A DNA stretch of 64,000 bases from Physcomitrium patens. Its lineage: Eukaryota > Streptophyta > Bryopsida > Funariales > Funariaceae. Position numbers and translations under genes: made by a program. The stretch spans positions 4,724,620 to 4,788,619 of the forward strand of contig NC_037256.1 of assembly GCF_000002425.4 (NCBI RefSeq), written 5' to 3'. Below the pieces are notes generated by a model, which was given only the letters and a program-made list of their open reading frames with translations, ran no database searches and had not been told where the DNA came from. Below, piece by piece: positions 10,990 to 59,100 of the stretch. How positions within the stretch are numbered: the stretch's first letter is position 1; each line of letters starts with the position of its first letter.

Positions 10990-11225
10990 TCAATAGATAT
11001 TAGGATTCTAATCTGCCTTAGGATTTGATCTAGGATTTAAGATTTGTTTAGGATTTGATTTAAGGTTTAGGATTTATCTAAAATTTGGTTTAGGATTTAG
11101 GATTTTTTTAGGATTTGGTTTAAGGATTGATTTAGGATTTAGGATTTATTTAGGATTTGATTCAGGATTTAGGATTTTTTTAAGGTTTATGATTTGGCCT
11201 AAGGTTTGATTGAAATTCATTAGGA
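10990..11225. repeat. Degenerate TTTAGGAT-type tandem repeat
   Basis: About a dozen variants of TTTAGGAT, TTTAGGATT or TTTAAGGTT follow one another with irregular spacing. The unit resembles the plant telomere repeat TTTAGGG but keeps only two of its three Gs. It lies between the gag remnant and the right LTR-like repeat of the first Gypsy element, so it may be part of that element's leader. Confidence 0.7.
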
Positions 11226-17951: not shown

Positions 17952-18480
17952 TTAAGTGCTCCAAATTTGAAATAGAACTTTACATGCATTTTAGAATAAT
18001 AAACAATATTATTACACTCTCTAGATATGATAGTTATAATATATAATTTATGCCTTCGGAAATTTTCTATGTGTCTTGTTTTTTTATTTTTTTTTACTTT
18101 AATAAAAATCCAATGAAAGCCGAAATGAAAACAAAGAGTTTATCTCCTTTCAAGAAATAACAAACAAAGAGGGATGAAAAATAAATTGTAATTCTTTATA
18201 AAAATCTGTTAAAAGCTTGCATTGCCGAGTATAGCAATAGTTCATATGGACTTCAATCAAACTTTCAACTTCATAGTCAATCCCTTTCAATAGAATGAAA
18301 CGTTCCAATTTAATAAACTAGAAATGGAAATTAATGGTTCAACCAAATAAGAGGGCTAGTTACATCCCCAACATCATCCATCTCATGTAAGAGAATCTCT
18401 CCCTCACCACCACACAAAACTCAACACAAAACCCAATTCAATGAACACGTAATTAGTTTCATTAAATTAAATTAAATCAA
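15461..18480. other. AT-rich intergenic DNA with microsatellites
   Basis: No gene is seen. It holds (GT)n at about 15505-15522, a compound (AT)n(GT)n array at 15993-16042, other AT arrays near 16617-16637, 16837-16858 and 17912-17944, and an A22 run at 17255-17276. The last 200 bases become less AT-rich towards the REV7 promoter. Confidence 0.65.
15993..16042. repeat. Compound (AT)n(GT)n microsatellite
   Basis: About 14 AT units run directly into about 11 GT units. The array is translated in one frame as an artefactual Tyr/Ile/Thr/His string, which I do not count as coding. Confidence 0.9.
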
Positions 18481-19014
18481 ACTGAACCGAAAATAAATGA
18501 GCGCACATGGTGTCCCACAACAACGCATGCATGGCATTGTGCCAGCGTGGCAACACTGACCCAGAAGAATGCCACCGAGAAAAGTCGCGTAAAAGTAAAT
18601 AGTAATGAAAAAGGTCGAGCCCCCTTCAAAAAAAGACGATGCGCCGCCAAAAGGAACGGATCCGCAGCCCTTGGATTGAATTTCTAAAACGGGGGGAGCA
18701 ACATCCGAGGCCACACTCCCTCTCTACTCTTCTCTCCCTCACTCTCACACACACATTCAGTCATTGTGGTCTCCATTTCATGTTCATCATCTTATGATTC
18801 ATGATTTTTATGATTTGAGGTTTTGGGGACGGAACCCAACTCGAGCATGTTACGGTGTTGTTGTTTGAGTTCTTGGCTCTCGTGCCCGACGCTTCGTTGC
18901 CACCAGCAACGGATTTTCGTCGGGGACACATCACGGCAGCAGCGCAGAGAGAGGGGAAATTGCTTGTGCGTCGGGGTTCGTCACCAGTAGTAGCAGATTG
19001 CGCGTGGGTGTTCA
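18481..19014 (+). promoter_or_regulatory. Probable promoter and 5' leader of REV7 copy 1
   Basis: Composition rises to that of genes about 500 bases before the REV7 copy 1 start codon. A pyrimidine-rich CTCTCT/CTCACTC tract at 18718-18755 is a plausible transcription-start neighbourhood, as CT-rich tracts are common near plant start sites. No clear TATA box is seen. An ATG at 18847 opens a short upstream frame. Confidence 0.4.
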
Positions 19015-20486
19015 ATGGAGGTCGTTCGTCTCGCTGATCAAGGTGGGGAGACATCCGTTGCCATGTGGTTGTGAGCATTGCGGTGGAATTGTGTTGTGGG
19101 TTTTTGGGGGTTGCTTGGATGGTTTCTCTCATTCTCACTTGGTGCTTATGAGATTTGAGCCTGTGTTGGATCTCGTGGTGATGCTGTTGCGGGTGGGTGG
19201 GCGGGCATGCGTTGCAGGAGATGTTGCTGCGCTGTTTTGCGAATTCTTGGAGGTTTGCATTCACCAGCTTCTGAGTGTGCGAGAAGTGTACCCGCCAGGT
19301 TAGTTCAGTTGTGTTCTTCCTTCAGTTTTTTTATTTTATTGTGTGGTGGAGAAGGGGGTTCTGTTGCTGTGGATTTATGGTCTCGCTTGCCAGGGTTTGT
19401 GTTTTGGACTCTGTGAGAATTGATGTTGGTTTCGTTGTTGGGAGCCTGTCTGCAGCGATCTTTGAAAGGCGGCGGTATTTTAATGTTCCTGTACAGTGGG
19501 CTCGTCATCCTGATTTGAGGGAGTACATACATTCAGCGGTCTCCAACCTCCAGACTTGGATCCAGCAAGTAAGAATGTTCAATCTCTTGGTGTAATATGG
19601 TGAAGGGTTGGTGCTTGGTGTTTTGAATTCCCTAATAGTTTCTACTTGGCTGTCGGTTCTCTGAATATGTAATCTCTTGGCCATCTCGTGTCCCATGTAA
19701 GGTCTCTAGTATCTTCATCAGGAGGGATTTTGATCTTGAAGTAAAGTGGTATCACACTCGAGTTTAAGCATTGTAACGACTAAGCGAGGAACATAATCTC
19801 AGGGTGCAGCGGAGAAAATCGCAATAAAGTTTCTGGACGCTAACCAAATTCCAGTGGAGAAGGTTATCTTCAAGTTGTGTCTCAAGAAGCTGACAGGGAC
19901 AGGATTGCCCGCACAACACCTTGAATTCGCTCTTCGAGGCTTCCTCCTCAAGATCTGCGTTAGTAACTCTGCGCTGCCACCTTTACCTCCAGGCACGATC
20001 GCATCTGCTCGCTTGAACTCCTTTCAATTGATTCTCGTGACCCAGTGAGATGAAGATGAACGAAAGGCACACTTCTATTGCCTTAAGTGATAACAATCTT
20101 CATCTTGGTTGATTAAGATGATGACCTTTAATCGAGTTTTAAGTTATGCTATTGTTGGACGAGCCATTCCAGGCTCGGTCATATTCCTCGAGTGTCTCAT
20201 TAGTGCTCACGGAATTAATATTTGTGGTGCGGTATCCACCCAGTTGACGCGGCGTGTATTCGCTGTGACAGACTGTTCGTGGGAGCTGGTTGCTTATATG
20301 AAGTCACTCTCTGCTGACAATGCCAGCAAATCTCAGTTCTGGATACCTGCTGATCCTAACGACCGTTCGAACCAGAGCTTCACAATCACAACCATCAAGT
20401 CAATGCGTAGCAGCTACTTGGACATGCAGTTGTACGTCGAACGCCCTGGAGTAGAACCTCAAAAAGAGAGTAAAACGGAGCCTTAA
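19015..20486 (+). CDS. REV7: REV7/MAD2L2-like HORMA protein, tandem copy 1
   Basis: Five coding exons: 19015-19042, 19218-19298, 19456-19568, 19803-19992 and 20272-20486. They join to 627 nt, 208 residues, close to the roughly 210 usual for REV7. REV7 is the non-catalytic subunit of DNA polymerase zeta; its HORMA fold binds REV3 and REV1 in translesion synthesis. The sequence shows CEFLEVCIHQLL, REVYPP and FERRRYFNVPVQWARHP, then DLREYIHSA, PVEKVIFKL, LEFALRGFLLKI and DCSWELVAY, which match plant REV7 blocks in order. The C-terminal MQLYVE segment is the HORMA end strand. The start is set by an ATG whose exon ends one base into a Gly codon, exactly as in copy 2. Intron 4 begins with GC instead of GT (CCAG|GCACGA). 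If it were retained, the frame would end about 17 residues later. The gene lies about 750 bp upstream of copy 2. Confidence 0.92.
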
Positions 20487-21236
20487 TGGAACGTGTGGGT
20501 TCTGGAGCTCAATCTCTCGTACGTGTGTTCATTCCAAACGTGGCATGGGTACCTGTAGCAGTCGTATTCTTCGCATCTTCGCATCTTCGCTTTTGGAGAA
20601 ATATGATTCTGTTACAGAAAGCGCTTTTCCAGGAGCTTTTTGTGGATACACAGGGTTTAGAAATTTAGGTTGGGGTTAACATTACACTCTTTGTGGCGCG
20701 ATCCTGAACTTTAAGTTGCAATCCTTGTGGAATTTAGTTGCACTGACGGGGTTTTGCTCTTTTTATTTTCTCGGATTTTGAAAAAGAAAAATGTCTAAAT
20801 TTCCCCCTTCTACTAAACCTTGGCGTTAACTTGGAATTAAATAAACAAATCTCATTCTTTTCGAAGACCCGACGTTCGGAGGTTTCGGAGCATCGACAAT
20901 TGAAAATCAGATGTGGTGGGCTTTTTGGAGGTTTTCGTGACAACCCTGTCTGTGATTTGTTCTTTCTGCAGCTCATTTGCGAAAACAATACGAATGTAGG
21001 CAAGCAGTCCAAGCCTCCTTTTTGGAATCCTGAAATCATTAGTAAATGATCGAACTTGTATTGTACGTTTATTTATACCGTACGTTCTGTTCAACCTCTC
21101 CATGACGTTAGGGTTTGGAGGTTGAATGGGTCGAACCAAGAAATTTATTGATCGGGACGGGAGTAAGTACTCTAACAAGAGGTCATATTTCTTCTAGCAC
21201 CAACTCCAGAAGTCCAATTTCTTAATTTTGGAGTCT
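20487..21236 (+). promoter_or_regulatory. Intergenic spacer between the two REV7 copies
   Basis: This 750-bp stretch must hold the 3' end of copy 1 and the promoter and leader of copy 2. It contains a short triple repeat of CATCTTCG-like units near 20570-20590. Overlapping open frames on both strands at 20734-21178 show no known domain. No TATA box stands out. Confidence 0.4.
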
Positions 21237-22594
21237 ATGGGGGTCGTTCGCCTGTGTGATCGAGGTATGAGATCGGCAACTTCATTGCTTGCTGCCTTAC
21301 AGGTGTTCAATGCTGTACCATTCCTGTACAGTTCTGTTGGACTGCGTTCAATTTCTCTTTTTGTATTTCGCAGGAGATGTTGGAGAACTTGTTTGCGAGT
21401 TTTTGGAGGTTTGCATCCATCAGCTCTTATGCGTCCGAGAACTTTACCCACAAGGTGTGACGAATCTCCCTCTCAATTCCATCCTTTTGCTTAAGAAGAA
21501 CCATCTCGAATCGTAAATCGGTAGTAAAAATCTTTTCCTATGTATCAACTGCTGCAAAGAGTTGGAAGTTCTGTAGGATGGTATCGAACACTGTCAGTTT
21601 CTGAAGAATCAAGTGTGTATGCAGAGATCTTTGAGAGACGGCGATACATCAATACCCCTGTGCAGTGGGCTCGGCACCCTGATTTGAGGGAGTACATACA
21701 TTCGGCAGTCACTAACCTTCAACCATGGGTTCAGCAAGTAAGTACCTTATGATTCTCTTGTGAGAATTTGGTTGATGTTTTTGCTTTCTGGTTCAAAGCT
21801 GGCAAAAAGCCACACGCCTGTTATGATAACTTCCATCATTTCGTTCCTTCTCTCCATGTATTTTCAGATGATACTGTTGGTGTTGAATAAAGCTTTGGAT
21901 CCCTTCTGATATGTCAGAACTTAAATGACAGGGAGTTGTAGACAAGGTCACTCTCTTAGTGATGAACAAGAATCGGACACTGGAAGAGAAGTTTGTGTTC
22001 TCTTTCGGCCTCAAGCAGCTGTCCACCGCAGGAGTACCAGCACAACACCTTGAATTTGCCCTTCGAGGGTTCCTTCTTAAGATATCCGTTTCTGATTCTT
22101 TCTTGTCGCCTTTACCCCCTGGTAAGAATTATACCCTCCATTTTTGTTCACTTCTGCCCTAATTTAATAAAGAATTCTTTGTATTGTGGAACTGTATTAC
22201 TCTTAGGCTACTCGAGTCGCTTTTTTAAAACTGCCGTGTGAGTGGAGAATATTCCTGTCTGAAACATTTTGACAAATCTTGCTTCATGTGACACTGTCCT
22301 TGATTTGTTTAACTCCGCCCTTGGACCTCAAATCCTTTTTTCTCTTCAATTCTAGAAAACTAAGGAATTGAAGCTATCTTATTATTATTTTTTATAGATT
22401 GTTCGTGGGAGCTGGTTACATACCTGAAGTCATCTTCTCTCGACACCATTAACAAAGACCAACCTTGGGTACCGGCTGACGACGAGGGCTGGGACCAGAA
22501 CTTCATAATGACATCCATGAAGTCAATGCGTAGCAGTTATCTGGACATGCAGCTCTACGTAGAACACTCCGTTGAAAAACCCACGGACGAATAG
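21237..22594 (+). CDS. REV7: REV7/MAD2L2-like HORMA protein, tandem copy 2
   Basis: Five coding exons: 21237-21264, 21374-21454, 21625-21737, 21932-22121 and 22398-22594. They join to 609 nt, 202 residues. The first four exons have exactly the lengths of copy 1 (28, 81, 113 and 190 nt) with identical phases, proving tandem duplication of a whole gene. All introns are GT-AG here, including intron 4 (G|GTAAGA). Motifs are MGVVRLCDR, CEFLEVCIHQLLCVRE, FERRRYINTPVQWARHP, LEFALRGFLLKI and DCSWELVTYLK. By eye the two proteins are about 75-85% identical in exons 2-3 and in the second half of exon 4, but only about 29% in the first 34 residues of exon 4. An open, intact frame argues for function. Whether both copies act as polymerase zeta subunits is unknown. 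Confidence 0.92.
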
Positions 22595-22665
22595 ACCACT
22601 TGACCGTGACCGAGATTATATGCTCAACAAAGCAACCGTGATCTGTATGCGAAACGAATGTATAA

Positions 22666-22671
22666 AATAAA
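22666..22671 (+). terminator. Candidate polyadenylation signal of REV7 copy 2
   Basis: A canonical AATAAA lies 72 nt after the stop codon of copy 2, in the local context TATAAAATAAAATTCC. The distance is plausible for a plant near-upstream element. Chance occurrence cannot be excluded. Confidence 0.45.
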
Positions 22672-23350
22672 ATTCCATTGAAAACCTCATTCCTAGCACA
22701 GTAGCCAAGTTTACGTTGCAGACATTGTGGTCTCTGAACTAGAACTAGGTAAGCTCAATCTGGAGGTGCTATAACGAGTTACAAAAGAGTTCTGAGCGGG
22801 AGTTAATGCTTCGAACTCTTTTGAAGTTTTTTTTTACTTCTCAAGACCTCTGCAACATCAAATGTGCACTACGGCTCTCTAGTCACCGAATGCTGTTTTC
22901 AGTTCAGACAAGTCCTGACATTGCAGTAGTACTGGAATCGCTGAAGCACATTGCAAGCTCCAGGAAGCAACGGCGCTCAAAATCCTGTTCCGTTTGAAAA
23001 TATTTCTAGACCTACTTATCTAGGCAGTTCTTTGAGCCCCTGTTTCTGTAGAAGCTCACCATCACATTGATAGCCTGGAAACCACAACCTACGTCTACAT
23101 TGGGGGCCCCTCTTCTTCTTCTTCTTCTTTCTTTATTTTTTATTTTTTTTATTTTGGGGGGAGAGGGGGGGAATTGGATGTGTGCTGGCGGAGTTACCGA
23201 GGCACCGAACTAGAACTGATGGGGTATGAATTGGTTGTAGATTTTTGGGACTTTTGGCGGTGTGGGTTTGGGTTTTTGCTACTAACTGCTTCAACCCATT
23301 CAAGGGCTCTTAAGCCTGTGAAGATCATACGGTGTTGGGTATGTCCTGCA

Positions 23351-23472
23351 TTTTTTTTTTTTTTTTTTTTTTTTTTTGCACTTTTTTTCACTTTTTTGGA
23401 GGACTTTGGGATGAAGGGCAATTTAACTACATTTGCACGATTAAAAGAAGAAAAAAAAAAAAAAAAAAAAAA
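23351..23472. repeat. T27 ... A22 inverted homopolymer pair
   Basis: A run of 27 T is followed, 73 bases later, by a run of 22 A. A transcript crossing it could fold into a long A-U hairpin. The frames predicted across it are poly-Phe/poly-Lys artefacts. Confidence 0.85.
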
Positions 23473-23624
23473 GAAGGTGTACGCAAGGATTTGCAATTCC
23501 TGAATATTTTTTTAATTTTCCAAGTGTACTTTGTTTGATTGTTTTGTAGGGTTGTAGTTTTAGAGCTTTTTCATTGTTTGCAATCGTGCTTGACGCTGTC
23601 TGAATCAGTGAATTGTGTTCATCA

Positions 23625-23662
<38 letters not shown>

Positions 23663-23807
23663 CTAATTTACTTCATTCTAATTTAGCACAAGACAATTTA
23701 AACATAACCAAATTTTAGACATTAATAACTTTAAATGTTGACTACAATATTAAAATTACATCTTTTAAGGAGAAAAATAAGTTAGTAATTTTTTTAAATG
23801 ATTCTTC

Positions 23808-23843
<36 letters not shown>

Positions 23844-24315
23844 GATTTTATTAAAGGCTTGTGCATGAGAAGAACAAGTTGCTACAACTTTTCTAACTTT
23901 GCTTCTACTTTTACTAACACTATCTTATTTATGACCTTGTAAATTGACGAAAAGTTAATTAATAAGAAAATTTAAGTTCTTAAAAATATCTTTTGGTTTA
24001 TTCAAATCTTCTATTTATTTGGCAATTTTTTTATATAAGTACAAAGAACTTAACTACAATCACTAAAACTACAAAAAGAATAAAAAATTGAAAATACAGA
24101 ATTGATTTAAAGTATTAAAGACTAATTAATAAATAAATTGAACTTTGATATCTTTTCAAATAGATAGAAAAAAATCTATTGGATACAAGTTGGTTTTTAT
24201 AATTATATAAAATTTATATACATAAGTAGAGCAATAGAAAATTCAAAAATTAAAAAGTAATATTTTTCTAACGATATTTTTTTAAAACAAATTGATAATA
24301 TCAAGGTATATCAAG

Positions 24316-28980: not shown

Positions 28981-31185
28981 TCAGAAACTCAATCAAGGAA
29001 CCAAACATCAAAGGCCTGATCCCTCCTCATGTGGGCCCCTTTAATGACAGAGCAGCCAGGTGGTAAGAGGTAGTGGCTCCCCCCCCACACCCCCATCTCA
29101 ATGTAGAGCCTTCATATTTCATTTCCCACATCATGACATGCCACAATATATCATCATCTATCTGAATGAGCATCTTAAACTCAGTCTGCATGGCTAGACA
29201 ACATTCCTTCATTCATTCATACAACAACACAAGCCAGGAGGAGGAGGAGGAGCCAGCTTCATGTTTGCTTGTGGGGTAGGCATGTATTTGTGTGTGTAAT
29301 ATCACCTGCATTGTAATGTTACTCTTACTGCCTGACTGCCTTTGTCTTTTTCTTCTTCTTAGTGGCTGTGGAATTAGGAGATGCCTGAAGCAACTGCATA
29401 ATGTTTGCATCATTAAAGGGAAAAGGGGCATTAAAAACTGTTAAACCCTCCATAAACCAGGAAAGCCCCCTTTTTCCAGCTCACGTGGTCATAGGGTCTC
29501 CTTTTGACTGTGGACTGCTGCCATTGCCCACCCCATGACCCCAACACCCACCCACACTCAAAAACCTCCAAGACCCGCGTCCGATGGACCAATTCATGAC
29601 CGCATGGTATCGGATCGCCAGGGTATCAGCATCGCGGTGTGAAGGCAGCGGGGTGGAGCTGGTTGGGCGGGTATAGGGGGCTGCTGGACGGGCCACGCAG
29701 CGACAAAGTAGTTGCTGGAAGAATGTGCACTCACCATCGCCGCTCTCTCTGTCTCTCTCTCCCTCTCTCTCTCGCTCTCGCTTGGGGCCAAGTGTTGTGG
29801 AGTGAGGATTTTGTCACTGCGGTGCATGTGGTGGAGTCATTGATTGAGTGTGTTCAGCTACAGTGGCTCTGCGGATGCTACCAACGATCACAACATTCCT
29901 TGAGTGTGGCAACTGTGAGCGTGTTTCTGGTGAGCAGGAGTGGGGGAAATTGAGGTTTCTGTGAGCAGATTTGCAGTAGAAATGAATGGCATAGTCGTGT
30001 CCAAGAAAAAGTGTTACTGAGGTGGCTTATGGTTGTCAGAATACATCGCTTCGCCTGTATCATCGGAGTTTATGAATACTTTCTGCGGTGTTGTAGTCGT
30101 CAACAATTGTTGTGCATCTCTGACAACTCATCGTGAAGTGGGATTTTGTTTTATTCTAACGAACCCCACATGAGCTCTCGCTGTGACGGGCTTACGACCT
30201 CGAGCAGACTCCTTGAGCCCTAATCCGAGCCTCGTCACTGTCTTGGTCAAAGCCCATGATGGCAGTCCCTCCCAACAACTTAGTCGTGCTGTGAGTACTC
30301 GGGGAGAGACATACGTGAAGCCCATTCCACATTTGACTCTGCTGGAGAGATGGCTCTGCAACTGTAATTTGGTATCCGTCTCCAGTTATATCCACTGTGC
30401 TTTAGCTGCGGCAGGCAACGAAGCTGAGATCGCACTGCTCCTCACCCGAGGGGGATTCGTCATAGATGGCTGGTTTCTTCAGCTGGACAGTAATCAGTTA
30501 AATGCTCTGTCACAGGAGTTGGCTGGTTTTTACGCATTATCCTCCACTAGGTTTGCTTCCGACGTTGTGAACCAGGCAGTCTAGGAGGCTCTCTACCGAC
30601 ATCAGCACATGATCACTGCAGCGGTGCTAGGGTGAACTAGAATGGTTTTTTCCTACGGCGCAAGGAGGGAGCTGGAATACAATATTTCATAGGTTATACG
30701 TGAATTTTTAGAGAGCCGACGGGAAAGGTGTGTGTGTGGGCGGCGCCTCAGTAGCGCTGAGGTTCTGAAAGCGCCAGAAGAGATAACTCTTGGTTTGGTT
30801 TACTACGGGACATGTGCACGACCTCAGGAGTGAAAGTATGTCTCGGAGGTGAAGCTTCTCGAGCAACCAGAACTTGGCGGTGAGTCTGATGCTCTGTTCT
30901 TTAAACATTTTTTGCACTGGGTATACTTCACGTATTCATCTCGGGGATGGACTCAAGTCATTAGCACATTGGACAGGATGGTACGAGTGCTCTCTGCCCT
31001 GACCTTGCACGTCAGCAGCCTGAAAAGGAATTTGATGCATATCGTACTTGGTGTTTTTCAGTCCGTTGTCCAGCAATGCCTGTCCATGGTACGAAATATT
31101 TTTAACGCCATCACCATAGAATTTTAGAACCCGAAGAGCGGTGGAAATAAAAACAGTAGATTCTGCTTATCGGCGTCGTTTGGTA
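28981..31185 (+). promoter_or_regulatory. Probable promoter and long 5' leader of the BES1-family gene
   Basis: Composition rises from about 29.0 kb on. A CT-rich tract at 29741-29781 is a plausible transcription-start region. From there to the start codon at 31186 I find no recognisable protein, only short frames with several ATGs, for example one from about 30258 within the open stretch 30183-30584 (+) and one open stretch at 30849-31127. This fits a long leader, perhaps with introns and upstream ORFs that could damp translation. A separate small gene of unknown family cannot be excluded. Confidence 0.4.
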
Positions 31186-32720
31186 ATGCCGAAAGAGGCT
31201 CCAAGTGAGTCTAACTCCAAGTCAGGGACCAGTAGCATGGCGAAGTTAAGCGCAAGCGAGAAGGAGAAGACGAAGCTAAGGGAGCGGCAGAGACGAGCCA
31301 TCACTACTAAAATTTTTGCTGGCCTCAGAAAATACGGGGGTTACAATCTGCCCCCTCGCGCTGACATTAATGACGTTTTGAAAGCTCTGGCCTCCGAAGC
31401 CGGATGGGTGGTGGAACCCGACGGCAACACTTATCGCTCCCAGGTAACCTCCATGCCCGGGCCTTGCGTCCATTCCTTGGGATTCTCAATGCACAACGTT
31501 TTAATTCATTTAACTGCGCGCTAATGGTGTACTCTTGCAATCAATGAAAGCAGCTCTCGCTAATGCTCTTAGCTAGATAAATTTAAGTCCAAAGCTTCAA
31601 AATCTTATTTATTCAATGCAAGGGGATTACCCCGTCTGTGTCAAAAAGGAGAAAAAGAAAAGAAAAGAAAGAATCCTACTTTTTTGTTAAAGAATTTGAT
31701 AGTTGCCCTGAATTAGGGCTGGTGAAGGATACTTCAAGTTGAATGAGTAGCGACCAAGTAGAATAATCGTGATTGATCATCAATTATTCAGCCACCAGAC
31801 CAGAAATCTTGCTCTTGTTTGACTTGATTGGATGTAGTAATTTTCTGCATCTCAACTATATTCACATTGATGTATCTTGTTTGTTTCGTTGTGTTCAATT
31901 GCAGCATCTCAAACGCGTCCATGTATTGTCTGAGCAGGGATTCTCGCAGCCTTCGAGCAGCCTGCACCACTCCCTTCGTCAGAGCAACCCTGCCATGAAT
32001 CGCCTGCAGCAGCTCATCCAGCCTCCGACCACGATCAATGCCGGGTTCAACTGCACGCTAGCGGGGCTCATGGGGGACGCAGGGGAGCTTCGTGAGGGCA
32101 ACTGCTCGACGACCGCCTCTCCGAGCCACCACTCCATGGGCGGGGCCGCTGGTCACCACTCCAACAGCTCCTCAATGACCCTCATGGGCTCCGGGTGCAT
32201 CTCCAACTCCCCCTTCGCCTCCCCGGCGTCCAGCGAAGGCGGCGCCCCGAGCCAGCGTCTCTCCCAAGGAAACCCTTACTTTACAGGCCTCTCCAACGGT
32301 TTCCTCCCCTCCTGCGGCCAGGTTCTCTCGGATTGCCACGACGGCGATTCCTCAGGGATCAAGGAGGAATACGCAGCGGCAGCGACATACTTCAGCGCCG
32401 ACACTCTCGACGCCCGAGACTTCCAGATGCAAAGAGCCACTCTGGACGTAGCTCCACACCTTCTCAACTGCCGAGACTTCTCAGGCAGAGGCTTTCTCAA
32501 CCACACAACCACCTCCATGAATAATTCAATGTTCTTCAACACCGCAGCAGCAGCAGCAGCACAACCAGCGCCAAATCGGTTCAGCAGCTCGCGCGCCGCC
32601 GATCCGCATCTGTCCAGCCTCATGATGCTGAGCGCGGGGCACCCGTTGTTCTTGCAAGAACAACGGGCGTCTAACCAGAACACCCCCTTGGGATCACCCC
32701 GGCTTCAAGACCCCCACTGA
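31186..32720 (+). CDS. BES1/BZR1-family transcription factor
   Basis: Two exons, 31186-31443 and 31905-32720, join in phase 0 (CAG|GTAACC ... TTGCAG|CATCTC) to 357 residues. Residues 25-86 form the BES1_N (BZR-type, bHLH-like) DNA-binding domain: [56 protein letters not shown]. The intron position just after the domain is typical of the family. The rest is Ser-, Asn-, His- and Ala-rich and probably disordered, with an Ala run near residue 310. Many Ser/Thr-X3-Ser/Thr patterns could serve a GSK3-type kinase. I see no LxLxL repression motif at the C-terminus. The basic region resembles that of the BAM7/BAM8 beta-amylase-type BZR domains more than Arabidopsis BZR1, by memory of those families. 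The start is the first in-frame ATG. An alternative Met lies at residue 18. The coding sequence contains a 26-bp palindrome at 32642-32667. Confidence 0.93.
32642..32667. repeat. 26-bp perfect palindrome in BES1 coding sequence
   Basis: The half-site CCCGTTGTTCTTG is followed with no spacer by its exact reverse complement. It lies about 50 bases before the stop codon and codes for the segment around LFLQEQR. The flanking bases do not continue the symmetry. Confidence 0.95.
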
Positions 32721-33923: not shown

Positions 33924-36910
33924 TCACGCCGAAGTTTGCATGGGCGCCGCGGCCGCGCCGTCGTGCTGCATCGGGACGCAGCCTTGCGGCCGGTTGACGT
34001 GCCGCGAGGCTGGCATGGCGTCAGCGTCACCTCTGGGTGCTGCCGCTGCTTGGATCGCTGTGTTGCCCATCTGCGACAATGGGTCGATGTTTGCGAATGG
34101 AGCTGATCCATGCGAACACGATGTTTCTGCAGGCATGGTGTACTTGACTTTTGGTGCGATTTTGGGTATGAGAACTAGTGCTGGCACTTCGACGCGAGTG
34201 CGTTTGGGTGGGGGACCTGTGCTGGTGCTCGCAGTGTGCGTCCACGAGGTGGGTTGTTGGGAGAGTTTGGAGGGAGTGATGCCCGGGAAAAGGTTCGAGG
34301 AGTCGGAGGGGTGGAGCGCCTGACTCACGGCGTTTGAGAGGAGTTCACCGTTGGTAATTTGGTCCGAAGGGATCCCCAGAGCGTGCCCTGCGATGACTTG
34401 CTCGATGATCATTCTCTGGAGGTTGGCACCCTGCTCTTCAATCCGCAGCTGAAGCTGCCGCTGGGTCTGCCATCGATCAACACCAACACACTCTTAGATA
34501 CGATTGAAGGTTGCAGCAGTTTTGAATTCGGAATTCTAACTCGTAAGCTCATGAATGCACGAATTGTTAGATTTCAATACAATGGATCAACATGTTCTAG
34601 ACCTCGAGCTGTTCGTGCAGACGCTTTTGTACCTCCATTTGCATCTGCAGTGCTTGGGACATCTTCGTAGTGCTTTAGGGAACCAACCAAAGAGTTAGAC
34701 TCTCGAACGTTTTAAAGTTCATAAGAAGTAAAAAAAAAACAGTATGAATCACATCGCAAGAGGGAGAGGTAACTTACGAGGTTACGTCGAAACCTCCTTG
34801 GCAGTGATTGTGGCGCTTCCGCTCACACTTGGATTCTGCATTTCCAAATCCCCCGTGGACAGCAAAGTTTATTTCTATCACTTTGCGCTCCATATTCAAA
34901 TGAAGCATTCATGGTAAAAATTTACGATGAAGTCATGAGATGAGTGAGAATACCTGCAGTGGACGTCTCAGGGATAAGCCGGTACTTCTGCAGATGACTC
35001 TTGACATGATAGATCGTAATGTCGTTGCATCCCATCAAACGCAGCACTGACTTAGGCGTTGCTCCTGCGAGCCATGTGATCAACCTATGTCAGTACCTAG
35101 TATTATAATGATGGGAGAAACCACAGAAGAGCTCTCGACTTGGACGAGTTCCAAACCTGTAGGATCTATATGGAATGAGAGTTGAGTAGACAAAGGCTGC
35201 GATTCGCTTACGATCAGGACCACCGAGCTTGGCAACAGCCGCGACAAACTTTTCGTGTAGTGCAGGAGTCCACCGTAAGCGAGCCTTGGCAACCTCAGCA
35301 GCTGAGAACATTGGTGTAGCTTCGATAGAGGGCCCTGGACTCCCTCCTGATGTTGCTACTGTAAGTTAAAATAAAATAAAATAAAATAAATAACAGGATG
35401 AATGGTGAGGGTGATCGCCAGGTTCAACTTTCCTACAACCTCTTCCTAAACTTTACTGAATTGGACCAAATTTTGAATGGGACAATGTGCACGGTCGGGC
35501 GCAGACCAGTTGATCGCTGTGACTGTTCGGCCTGCGGGTGTTGGGTAGATAGCAGAGGGGAGGAGGCCACCGTCTGAGGAGCGATACTGGGCTCCTGGAG
35601 CTGCAATTGAGCACAAATACACAAATTGAACACACTACAGCCTTTCGTAACGCAACACACCATTCTCAGAACTGCTTTCGACAATGTCATGCTACAAGAA
35701 GTTTGAAATCCTCAACAGTTGAATTGCAGAGAATCTGGAATCATCGAAAAACGACAGTCTTACCATGTCAGGAGGATTAGCCATCTCCCTCCGATGGATG
35801 AGATGAGGCCAGCCGGAGGTTTCCCATTCAGACTTTAGAATTGGACTCTTGACTGGCTGTGACAAGTTACTGCCGTCGGGTTGCTGGGAGCTAGAAGCTT
35901 CAGCTAGTAACACCTACAGCCACGAGTAAAACCCAACTCACACAGCATTAGAATCTAATCCATCCAACTTGATGCCGTGCACATGTTTCAGATTACGCTG
36001 ACAATGTGCGACAATATGCAATCCGCGGTCGACTGCTTGTAAACTAGTGAGAATTAGCATGACCTCTTCATCGACATGATACTGTAAGAGGCGGAATCAT
36101 TGCTTGTAGCAGAGGACTGGATCAAACTTTTACGCCCAGGGCATGTTCGTGTGCGGTGCACAATTACAGAGCTTTAGTAAATGGTCTCACCTGAAATGAA
36201 TCAAGGCGCGTGTTTGTAGTCGCCGCGGGAACTTTGGCAGTGGCTTCTTGTGAACTGACAAAGTCTGATACTGCAACTGGCATCATTGGAGAGGGTTTGC
36301 GTAAAGCTGATTCGGATGCGGGCTTGGCAAACTGGGTGTAGGGGCAATTCCAGAGGGGGTTGGTTTCAGCTTGGAGGGGGAGACTGAGCGTTTCTCCTTG
36401 AGAATGAGTCAAGGCTAAACTGGGAGGACTACCAGGCGCTAGTACATTTGACGTCTCAATGGCCGAAGGTGCGCCTTGCCATGGCGGAGCGCAGTTAGGC
36501 TCTCGGAACTGCGAATTGTTATGTTCGTTCCTATGAGACCACTCCGGTGACTTCAGTTCCGAAGCGGAGTCGGCTAGAATCGGAACCTGCTGCCGGCTGC
36601 CATGTTCATGCGACGCCATTGCAACGTTCACCACGTACTGGAGGTCGTAGTCCTCATGGAATCCTTGCGGTGCCACAAAGAAGCTCTGCCCTGATGAGGC
36701 CTTTGGCGAAATCACCTGGCTGCCGCCAAATACCTCAGATATGCTTTGCGCCCGGTTGAGACTTAAACTTGTGCCATCTTCCTGTCGTGAGACAAAGCGC
36801 GCAAGGGGTGCGACGCACTCCTCGCTAGCACCTGCTACGCAACTTTGCGATGCTGGCACATGAGACGCAGAGGCGCTTGAGATGGGTGCCATGCTGGCGA
36901 CCACGCACAT
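33924..36910 (-). CDS. MYB-CC (PHR-type) transcription factor
   Basis: Coding exons on the minus strand: 36910-36191, 35913-35764, 35600-about 35507, 35358-35212, 35064-34954, 34835-34778, 34672-34603 and 34466-33924, giving about 630 residues. The single MYB (GARP-like) repeat reads [36 protein letters not shown], then [18 protein letters not shown], with the SHLQKYR signature. After a short spacer the MYB-CC coiled coil follows: [34 protein letters not shown], containing the LHEQLE core. Proteins with this pair of domains include PHR1, which binds P1BS sites and controls phosphate-starvation genes and is held by SPX proteins. That role here is by family only. The long N-terminal exon (240 residues) is low-complexity. 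One weak point is the end of exon 3: the strong donor at 35456 gives the wrong phase for exon 4, while the donor at 35506 gives the right phase but is weak. A 5' UTR intron (about 36930-36998) is likely. Confidence 0.92.
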
Positions 36911-53109: not shown

Positions 53110-56100
53110 CTATCGGACAGTGTTAGGCTCTATTTCAGTACCTAAGTTGGTCAGTTTGTTGCCTTCACTACCTAAATTCACATTGTGCTGCTGTGGAACA
53201 ATTTTGTTGCCGTCATTGACACCTTTTGTGGGTAGAGACCCAAGACACTCTGAGCTCTCGGATGCAGATCCATTACAATCTTCAACTGAGCAACAATCCA
53301 CTCCATTCTCGGTAGGACCACTCCCTGTGGCCAAAGTACAACCCACTTCCGATGATCTATTGAGGCTTTCGCCTCCGTTTGCACATTCCACTCTCACCAC
53401 ATTTCCTGTTACATCGTGAGAACTCATGTCCTCATCAGGACTTAATGATGCAGCAACTTTTTCACCTTTAATAGCGGCTAATACAGCCGCAGTTTCTGCG
53501 GATTCATGTGACAGATGATGGTCACTAGGAAGCGTAGCACTGGTGCCTGAAGGAGCTGTGTCCAAATCCTGATGTCGAAGTTCGCTGCTCGTGTCAGGAG
53601 TCCCTTCATTCGAGCTGGATGGCTGATGTTCTGCACCTGATACAGGTAGATCTGCGGAAGATGTGCCGAAAACTTTTGCTTCGCCTACATTCAAACTAAT
53701 ATCCTGCTCAGCTATAGATTCAGGACTCAGCGTTGTAGATTCTGACAGGCTCAGTTCTTCTGAACTCTTTGTACAAGACCCAACTCTGCTGGTGTCAACA
53801 ATACCAGAACGACTAGACTGGGCATTGGGAAGGTCAACTGAATGACCATCCTCAGGTTTCAGTCTCTTGGACGCAGTCGCATCAGTTTCCTCCAACGTTG
53901 GAGCAAGAGGAGTCTTTCGCTTGGTTGGAGTTCCATCTTCTACTCCATGCCGAACAGGGTCTGTAAGTGGAGCAGCAGGAAGTGGATTCTCTGACCTCTC
54001 CACCACCTCACCTGGATCCTTGCCATTGGTGCTCACTGTTGTAGGCATATCTTCATCCTCATCCTCATAATCTACGAGCCCAATGGCGCTTCCCCTGTCG
54101 AATCAAAATTCAGCTAAAATTAAGAAACGAACTGTGGGAGGGCATTAACACGACTCCATAACCTCGAGCATAAGAAATAAAAGAAATGTGACAACAAGAG
54201 GTAGTAACCTGAAAGGTGCACCATCCACATCGCCATCATTGATTACGACTGCCTTTATTAATTGAGGTTGTGAAGCTGTGCTAACTCGAGCAGTTACCGT
54301 ATCTTCTTCGTCGTCTCTGTCCAGATAGAAACGAAATTACAAGTCACATGACCATGATTCACCATGCAAAAGTACCTGAAGTCTCGACACCAAAAAAAAT
54401 CTCTGCATATAAGTGAAACTTCGATAAAGTGATAATTACCTATCCTGGTTGAAATAGTCCTCTTCATCTTTGTCCAATTCTCGTTCGTTCTTCCGCCTGC
54501 GGCTATCGGAAAAGCCTGCTTGATTGTGCCTGTCACGAAATGAGCGTGAACCATGATCGGGGCCGCCGCTTGCAACAGCACCACCTGCATCTCTTGTGCC
54601 AGGTGAAGGACCCTCCAAAAGCTGAAGCAAACACAAGAAATCGGAGTTAATGCCTTGAGCATTCCCTGCACATGCTAACTCGACTGCCCCACATTCTTAT
54701 CAAGATCAGCAGAAGTAAATACATTTCAAGTCGCTGAAATTCTTGAACTTCATGTGAGGATATCATGTAATACCAGGCCCAAACTCACGCTTTTCATTAA
54801 ATTTCAAATCCATCAAACTGAGTTTAAAATGTACTTCGCATCAATGTACATTTGATCCACCATTTCACATTCATCTGATGTTGACCTTGGTACCATGATG
54901 GATGAAAGCCCATTCGAAACGTATCTAGGATTGAGTATTAATCACTACGAATTCAAACACTTTACAGAATTAGAAAAATATTTTGACACGTGTGTGGAAC
55001 TTCTTGACAGGATGCGGTACCTGCATATCATATTATTTGCACTACTTCTAGTGATTTTTCGCACCTAACCAATTTCTCAAGTTTGATACTCACCTGTTCA
55101 TATTTCACTTTCAGGGCTCGAAATGTGTCGACGTAATCAATGGATTCAAATTTTAAAGAATATTTCTCGATCAAATGTACTATGAGAGTTTTGATGCCCT
55201 CCTGCACAAGTTGCGTTATAAATGAGTCAAATCACCGAATCGTAGTTTGACAGTATACATATACAGTTCAAAAAACAGGCAATAATATTCGACTGATGCT
55301 TAATCAAATCGTTGCCCTATGATGGCGCCACAGTACAGAAACGCCAGTTTTTATCCTAGAACGAAGGACTAACTCCAAAAATCTTAATTGTTGCACTTAA
55401 ATCGCATATGCAAAAGGAGGTCCAACTCCGTGTGCTGCACAAACGTGCGCTACAGGGAAAGACTAATGAAAAGCTCTATTCTGCACACATGGTTAATTGA
55501 TAGCATCAAAAAGCAAGAACAAATATTTACATACTATCTACCCAGGAGAATAAGAGCCAAGAAATGATGTAAACAGGGGACACACCTTTCGGATGAAGTC
55601 AACGAGCTCCAATACAGTCGAATTGAGGAGATTGTAGCGATTACCATTCGCCACGAAAGCTCCAATAATAGGTTCAAACAAATTGTGCTTCACAATGTAC
55701 CGATAGTAAAATTCGTCCTGCGATTCATCACGACATTTAGCAGGAGCAAGATAACCAGCGTTCATTACCTTGTTGAAGCCTTTCCATGATTAATTCAAAG
55801 CATCGATGTCTTTGCAAAACGCTATTCAGCAGCAATCAACCAATTAAGGAAACTAGAGCTAACAAACTTCACATACATCAAACCCTGCAGAGAACACTGA
55901 ACCCAAATAAATAAATAAAATTTGTCCCTCAAAACGATGATTTTATGTTCATTTTTCATCACTGTTAGGCACAACTAACCTCTCCATCCATTTTAACTCA
56001 AAAGAACTTGCTCTAGATGATAATACTCATAATGCACCTACGAAAGGCAGACTTCCAACAGAACTAACCTTTAAAGCTACACATGTCCTTAAAAATCGTA

Positions 56101-59100
56101 CAGCAGCTACAACCAGGTACTTTTCCTTCCTACGAGTTAACTTCAATATTTTCTCCACAACATGATTTCTCATCACATAATACCTGTAAAGTGACAAAAA
56201 AACAATTTATTAAAATTTTTAAATTTTTTTAACAAGAACAGAACTATGTGCATCACAATTCAACTTACGATCAAAAGTGAAATACAGAAGAAATGAAAGT
56301 TAATCAACTACGTACAAAGGATCAAAATGAACAAGAGATCTAGCCGCCATGACTTTTGAGGTTTGTTGCCTACTATAATACCAAAAAGTTCATAGGTTGA
56401 TGTAACCATCTTCACCCCAACCCTACGCTTAATAAACAATTCGAAAATAGCAGTAAACTTACTTGATTCTGAACCGATGATGCTGGACACAAAAACACAT
56501 GAGCTCGCAGATGTTTCCAAGAATTTCTGGAGCAACGGCCCGCCTGGTCTGTTTCCCAAAATCGGTTGAGGAGCCATAAGTGGACTGTGTCCTGCATGAT
56601 TCTGGTGGACAACTGTCTGTAATAATCTGAACCATTTGATCCATATATCTTTCATAAAATATCTCCAGAAAAAGGCTTTTATCAACAAGCGGCTGTAATC
56701 ACGTGAATGGCATAAATCAGTGACTGTTACAATCAGAAATCGAATTTCGTACACACATCATAAAAAGAGCAGTTAAGGAGCAATGACTATAAACTGTACA
56801 CTAATACAAACTCAAATTTCTTAAACATTTGTGAACTAAACTGCTGGCAAAAAAATGTTTTAGCTTAAGTCCACGCATTCTAAGATGGAACAAAAACTGC
56901 AATTACACAGGCAACTACAAACCGAACCAAATTTAAAGACTTACTGAATCCATTGTCTCTGAATCCAGGAGCATCCGCATAATTTCCAGCAGCTGTGCTT
57001 GCAATCCATCTTCACTAGGAGTTAACATCCCTTCTACCTGTACATGTGATCAAGATGTTAGTGCAAGATCTCTAGTCGTCATCAACTCATGATCCAATAC
57101 ATTTCGAAATAACTCATCCCGATTCACTACATGTGCATACAACATTTTTGCTCTACAAATTTTAGGACATGTCAACTGTCATGAATCCAGGGTTATTTTA
57201 AAGAATTCGACGAATAAAGATTTAAAAATTAATCTCTTAAAATTTGCAACTGTCAATGAACCTAAGTGACTAGACTTACATCTTAAGTCGATGAATTACA
57301 TTTTAAGTCGATGAATTACATTTTAAGTCAACCAGTGAAAGACATCGACTTAAAATGTAATTCATTTCCAAAGTGTTAATAAAACAATTCTCTTCAATCA
57401 CTGACTGAAATGAGCTGGAAGTGAAACTTTCAACGAAACTGTCAAATTCAAGACCACATATCAACATCAAAGCACATGCCGCCCACCAGTTCACCGAACA
57501 ATGTGAGATCCGATTGGTGCACGAGAAACGTCCGTAGTAATGTGGGATCATGATTCAGAATTACAAGTAAAATATCACACCTGACACCAAAGCACCCCAA
57601 CTCGTGCAAATCAATTCGCCTGCAAAATCAACTGGAATCTGGCCTGTCTCTGAGTATATAAACAGAAAGAGCTGATAATGAGAGACACCTAAACAAACTA
57701 GCTACTATCTTACAAATGTAGCTACTAGGAGCAGCGAAAACAATTCTATGCCACAACATGTGACATTACAAGTCATGATGGAAGAGGCTCACCCACTGAG
57801 TCGGACAACCTCGTCTGACTCCTTGAGTATGTCCTTCACAATATCAAATAGTCCTTCTTTGACAAGTGTACTGCCAAGAGGAACAATTACAATGTCTGAC
57901 ATAAGTAAAATGGTTCAGAAGGACGGCAACAATCCAAAAATAAACAATCTAGCTCTTACTAACCACAAAATTGATCTCCGAAAAAAAAGGAAGGACATGA
58001 ACTCAACCAAAATAATCACTGAACGCCTCAAATAAAACAAGTGTCATGTGAATACAAAGATCGGTTAGGTGAAAGCGTACCTGAAGAGCTGACCTCGCAT
58101 TACCGGTTGAAGATGTTTGCTCAGGTTGCAGAACTCTTGAACAAAAATAACCTACATCAACGATATTTACACATATACCAAAAAGAGAGCTTATAAGTGT
58201 CTTAACATCACCACCATCGCTTTCTTCTGAAGACTAACTAGTATTCACAGATTAATGCATACAAAAAAGAATGAAATTAGTTCTTCTGTGTCATGACACT
58301 TACCAAGTCCCGCCTATTTCTCTCGGGAGTTTCGGGAACGCGGAGTCTTGCGAAAAGCTCCGACAGGAAAGCAGGATCGTTGTGAAGCGCAGTCACCACC
58401 TGCATGAAGGATATGTAATATAAAGCATCTTCGTTCCAAATGACCCGAAGCATAATGTACAAATACGCATATACAAGTACTATTCCACAGGAAGTACATA
58501 ATTATGGTAAGGAGTTTTCCAAATAACCTTCCAACAAGGAAACTTACCGAAACATTGTTGAAAAGCATGATTGAGTTGATTGTAGCATAAGTTGCATCAT
58601 CAAGCACCCTAGGTAATATTACATCCTGTATACAAGAGCATATACATTTAAAGTTGTGAATCACAAGTAAACAAAAGCATTAGGCGGAAAGGATCCACAA
58701 TATTACAAGAACACACTGGCCAAAAACCACCGCAGTTAAATTACAGTAATGCAATATGTGAAACCTTAATATAGCCGATACGATATGTCTGGTGGATCTT
58801 CGACAAGATTACCGGATCACGAATAGGAACAGCCTGCTTATCCAAATAACATCCACATGAGACTATGAAGCCTGAAATTGAGCTGACAAACATACATAAT
58901 GAAGCATATCCTTATCTATAAAGACATTAGGGACAATGTTAACCTTTGCTGCATATCATGAAAACCTCTACGACAGTTGTTCATGACAAACTTCTGCAGA
59001 TTCCAAACTTTCAAAACCTCAGGGCAAGTAGAGAAGAAACTTGGCGGCTCTTAGGCAAACGCAAAAACACGTCTAGAAACGTACAATAATGAAAATGAGA

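Follow-up and report, generated by a model that had tools for sequence, protein, structure and literature searches.

Two complete, co-linear REV7/MAD2B genes (copies A and B) lie in tandem in the stretch of Physcomitrium patens DNA analyzed here (64 kb, referred to as the window) and, as judged from their sequences, the pair is a real, old, and conserved set of tandem duplicates from an already known family. The best explanation, which we regard as highly probable, is that a whole REV7 gene was duplicated in tandem at or before the moss WGD1 and that both copies, each still encoding a REV7-type HORMA protein, have been kept through dosage or modest specialization.

Gene Models

The spliced models place both genes on the forward strand, with 749 bp between the stop codon of copy A and the start codon of copy B (Table 1), in agreement with an earlier note on this DNA, which had described two complete same-strand REV7-type genes approximately 750 bp apart. 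The same note had reported equal lengths and phases for the first four exons, and this is what the models give (28, 81, 113, and 190 bases with phases 1, 1, 0, and 1, in A and in B alike), the fifth exon being 216 bases long in A vs 198 bases in B. Its further statement that both frames are open holds for copy B with GT-AG boundaries throughout, and for copy A on the condition that a GC donor is used at intron 4; over the two genes, 7 of the 8 introns are GT-AG. The spacer contains one forward AATAAA at 20840, a candidate poly(A) signal of copy A, which does not exceed the chance expectation of 1.155 for both strands. No third REV7 copy was found in the 64-kb window by tblastn at an E value of 0.01.

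Table 1. Coordinates of the two REV7 genes and of their parts in the window
Feature	Position	Strand	Remarks
REV7 copy A	19015..20487	+	5 exons, 208 aa
Copy A exons (stop codon included)	19015-19042, 19218-19298, 19456-19568, 19803-19992, 20272-20487	+	spliced model
Diverged block, copy A exon 4, residues 75-108	19803..19904	+	10/34 identical to B
Copy A intron 4	19993..20271	+	GC-AG boundary, CAG/GCACGA ... GACAG
Copy A exon 5	20272..20487	+	residue 138 onward; falls on the safety-belt (C-terminal) part in the alignment to human REV7
Spacer between A and B	20488..21236	+	749 bp
REV7 copy B	21237..22595	+	5 exons, 202 aa, introns 4/4 GT-AG
Copy B exons (stop codon included)	21237-21264, 21374-21454, 21625-21737, 21932-22121, 22398-22595	+	spliced model
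Matching diverged block, copy B, residues 75-108	21932..22033	+	

Identity of the Encoded Proteins

The best PDB match of both proteins is human MAD2B/REV7 (123.2 bits, E 1.2e-34 for A; 124.9 bits, E 3.8e-35 for B), to which they are homologous over nearly the whole length, with REV3-pocket and dimer residues kept. An identity as MAD2, the HORMA protein of the spindle checkpoint, was considered and ruled out: the domain family is common to MAD2 and the moss proteins, but the sequence similarity is weak, the MAD2 matches in the PDB reaching at most 32.2 bits for A and 36.4 bits for B, approximately 88–91 bits below REV7. The Pfam HORMA profile scores 25.8 bits in B and 22.5 bits in A, vs a curated cut-off of 24.

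A search of the assembly (470,438,890 bases, 101 contigs) with the HORMA profile returned three matches elsewhere and missed the REV7 exons of the window, so that its matches do not provide a count of REV7 copies. A match at C4:9703590-9704120, on the same contig as the REV7 pair, is an open stretch closest to MAD2A, and two HORMA pieces at C5:3118301-3118968 appear by eye to be meiotic HORMAD-like; the one C5 piece tested had six PDB matches with E values of 1 or lower, none of them to a HORMA protein.

Divergence, Age, and Constraint

The proteins of A and B are identical at 131 of 202 aligned residues (65%), and the Nei-Gojobori estimates for the pair are dS 1.23 and dN 0.23. For the first 195 codons, the dS estimate is 1.18, a value near saturation whose bootstrap interval (0.82–1.89) overlaps the Ks of WGD1, and 92% of the bootstraps exceed 0.90. 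The Ks peaks of P. patens are given in the available text of PMC9247546 (citing Lang 2018) as 0.75–0.90 for WGD1 and 0.50–0.65 for WGD2, with WGD1 being interpreted there as common to P. patens and Pohlia. Set against the WGD1 peak, which was possibly obtained by a method other than the one used for the pair, a dS of about 1.2 suggests that the two copies probably split at or before WGD1. A recent duplication is ruled out by dS.

The dN/dS comparison proposed in the earlier note gives a pairwise value of 0.18 over the first 195 codons (bootstrap 0.11–0.27), which points to purifying selection averaged over A and B, the pairwise value being a mean of both branches, in which it could go unseen that one copy has recently lost constraint. 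Faster decay of one copy was considered as well and is ruled out by the relative rates with human REV7 as the outgroup, as 11 of 187 sites differ in B alone and 10 in A alone.

Where the Copies Differ and Whether They Divide Labor

Residues 75–108 are identical at 10 of 34 positions. The most diverged 34-residue segment of the alignment, of a length picked after the alignment had been seen, holds 25 of the 66 differences of the first 195 codons, which was equalled in none of 5000 permutations; the second most diverged region spans residues 138–175 (20/37 identical). At the positions to which roles in the REV3 pocket (37, 63, 146, and 171) or in dimerization (35, 44, 124, and 129) are assigned in the available text of PMC8468184, PMC7181697, and PMC7272641, A equals B in 8/8 cases, and the human residue is also kept at six of these eight. 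Both copies have the pocket residues Y37, Y63, and W171 and the dimer residues E35, R124, and K129, and both carry W in place of F146 and R in place of K44. Among the residues that face REV1, Q200 and Y202 are kept in both copies, and L186 is replaced by I in A and by M in B; A differs from B at 5 of 12 REV1-facing positions, which equals the background rate, and both copies are as human at 5 of the 12. Against the background (121/187), the P values are 0.17 for the REV3 pocket, 0.17 for the dimer positions, and 0.42 for the REV1-facing ones. Since no residue set departs from the background, selection is not claimed to single out the REV3/dimer or the REV1 surface.

A division of labor between A and B is plausible. 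A true one, with one copy serving Pol zeta and the other a mitotic or double-strand-break-type HORMA role, seems to us unlikely, although the long retention of both copies (dS, dN/dS) and the clustering of their differences in residues 75–108 would fit with it. It also has an analogy in HTP-1 and HTP-2 of C. elegans, which are described in PMC13381836 as 82% identical and specialized mainly via seven changes; the change there, however, affects the safety belt, while the block in which the moss copies diverge most lies outside of it and is possibly just a tolerant surface. The differences on the REV1-facing side do not go beyond the background rate, and with A and B agreeing at every REV3-pocket and dimer position tested, the sequence assigns no different partners to the two copies.

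Intron 4 of Copy A

The GC donor at 19993, which takes the place of a GT in copy B, has 6/9 matches to the GT donor consensus. No other GT or GC site between 19900 and 20259 reaches six matches, in a scan that listed sites from 6/9 upward, a level which two GT donors of the pair itself (A1 and B2, 5/9) do not reach. Introns of the GC-AG type form a minor but recognized class. By conceptual translation, RNA in which intron 4 is kept would yield from copy A a product of 155 aa, with the stop before the safety-belt exon, and from copy B a product stopping at 150 aa.

Copy A could from this be taken for a gene on its way to a pseudogene or to a truncated-protein gene, in which the GC donor would leave intron 4 in much of the RNA and the product would be a REV7 core lacking the belt, and the HORMA score of A, below the Pfam cut-off, is consistent with such a course. 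We nevertheless hold this to be quite improbable, given that exon 5 of copy A is open and keeps W161, Q190, and Y192 (human W171, Q200, and Y202), that the closeness to human REV7 is equal for the two copies (70 identities for A vs 69 for B), that the intron class, albeit minor, is an established one, and that donors of the GT type within the same pair score lower than the GC donor.

Proposed Model

In the model of an old whole-gene tandem duplication, which we favor, an ancestral REV7 would have been duplicated whole and in tandem, resulting in two co-linear paralogues that are both of the REV7-type HORMA class. REV7 is described as wrapping its safety belt round a motif of REV3 and as dimerizing (PMC8468184, PMC7181697, PMC7272641), and the safety belts of A and of B would each close on the REV7-binding motif of REV3, with both proteins connecting Pol zeta with REV1, like REV7 elsewhere. 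Since A and B agree at the dimer-interface positions tested, the two may form heterodimers besides homodimers. The most likely cause of retention would be dosage or a modest specialization, either in expression or in the preference for REV1 or another partner.

A further reading, in which moss Pol zeta contains an obligate REV7A–REV7B heterodimer and translesion synthesis is tuned by an intron-4-retention switch, the belt-less REV7A dimerizing and providing no clamp on REV3, is in its combined form very improbable. For Arabidopsis, a REV7 homodimer and a REV3 with one REV7-binding motif are reported in the available text of PMC6794406, which implies that a second REV7 gene is not in itself required.

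If the favored model of an old tandem duplication is correct, the pair would offer, in a plant amenable to genetics, old natural paralogues through which the roles of REV7 would become separable by single-gene knockouts, and would reveal if a heterodimer can stand in for the REV7 homodimer. The moss is known for efficient gene targeting, and to our knowledge REV7 is one protein with several partners wherever it has been studied.

Mode of Duplication and Surroundings in the Window

The introns lie at matching places in A and B, which argues for a duplication that was DNA-based, and the tandem duplication claimed in the earlier note is borne out. An assembly artefact, that is, a single gene represented twice, which the note had named as speaking against its claim, has no observation in its favor and can be dismissed with near certainty on the divergence of the copies (only 65% protein identity, synonymous sites near saturation, differing intron lengths, and A/B alignments near shuffle scores in intron 1, z 0.8, intron 4, z -0.1, and the flanks, z 1.6 and 1.5), which rules out a young copy as well. 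Introns 2 and 3 retain some likeness between A and B (z 2.5 and 4.7 vs shuffles). A wider segmental duplication was considered and rejected, as blastn of 18000-20899 vs 20900-24000 gave four matching pieces, every one of them exon-centered. The repeat search recovered the REV7 exons as families D5–D7, and the only repeat family flanking the pair on both sides was D1, an AT-rich simple repeat.

A motif scan near the genes (SOG1, E2F, and four others) gave little: the region upstream of A has a single E2F-like site, vs 0.195 expected, and AATAAA occurs there four times in forward and once in reverse orientation (1.475 expected). Rfam had no match in the 64-kb window at gathering scores. Elsewhere in the window, a BES1/BZR1 exon, from a gene for a plant transcription factor, was seen at 31120-31521 (+; Pfam E 4e-35, PDB match BRASSINAZOLE-RESISTANT 1), the gene possibly extending into the open frame 31773-32717, which has no Pfam family match. 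The MYB-CC LHEQLE motif is matched weakly at 33927-34493 (-; 20.8 bits, cut-off 29.1), and a PP4R3 match falls just below its cut-off at 58317-58679 (-; 26.1 bits, cut-off 27), while the open frame 53113-54102 (-), without a Pfam family match, resembles a PP4R3 tail by eye. A degenerate run of TTTAGGAT-type repeats (family D2) at 11013-11216 (+) is like interstitial telomere-like sequence, and dispersed direct repeat pairs were found at 39051-39332/45478-45759 (75% identity, D3) and 1347-1523/11618-11794 (86%, D4).

Relation to Known Systems

Among the titles and abstract openings of the literature matches listed, none reports paired REV7 genes from a moss, which is not proof of absence, and the terms MAD2, HORMA, polymerase zeta, and translesion are absent from the main text of PMC4990234, on the moss double-strand-break response. 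The description of REV7 as usually single-copy in the earlier note agrees with Arabidopsis, for which the available text of PMC6794406 lists one locus, At1g16590, vs the two diverged tandem genes of P. patens; it does not extend to a bdelloid rotifer, for which PMC6264785 gives two REV7 copies, in a genome with 2–4 copies of most loci.

The pair resembles the tandemly arrayed genes of Physcomitrella in consisting of tandem gene copies, but differs from them in that those arrays are described in PMC3729371 as identical or nearly so, whereas A and B are only 65% identical. With HTP-1 and HTP-2 of C. elegans it has in common that duplicated HORMA genes have both been retained; those are, however, meiotic HORMADs with a demonstrated specialization (PMC13381836), whereas the moss proteins are REV7, for which specialization is only possible.
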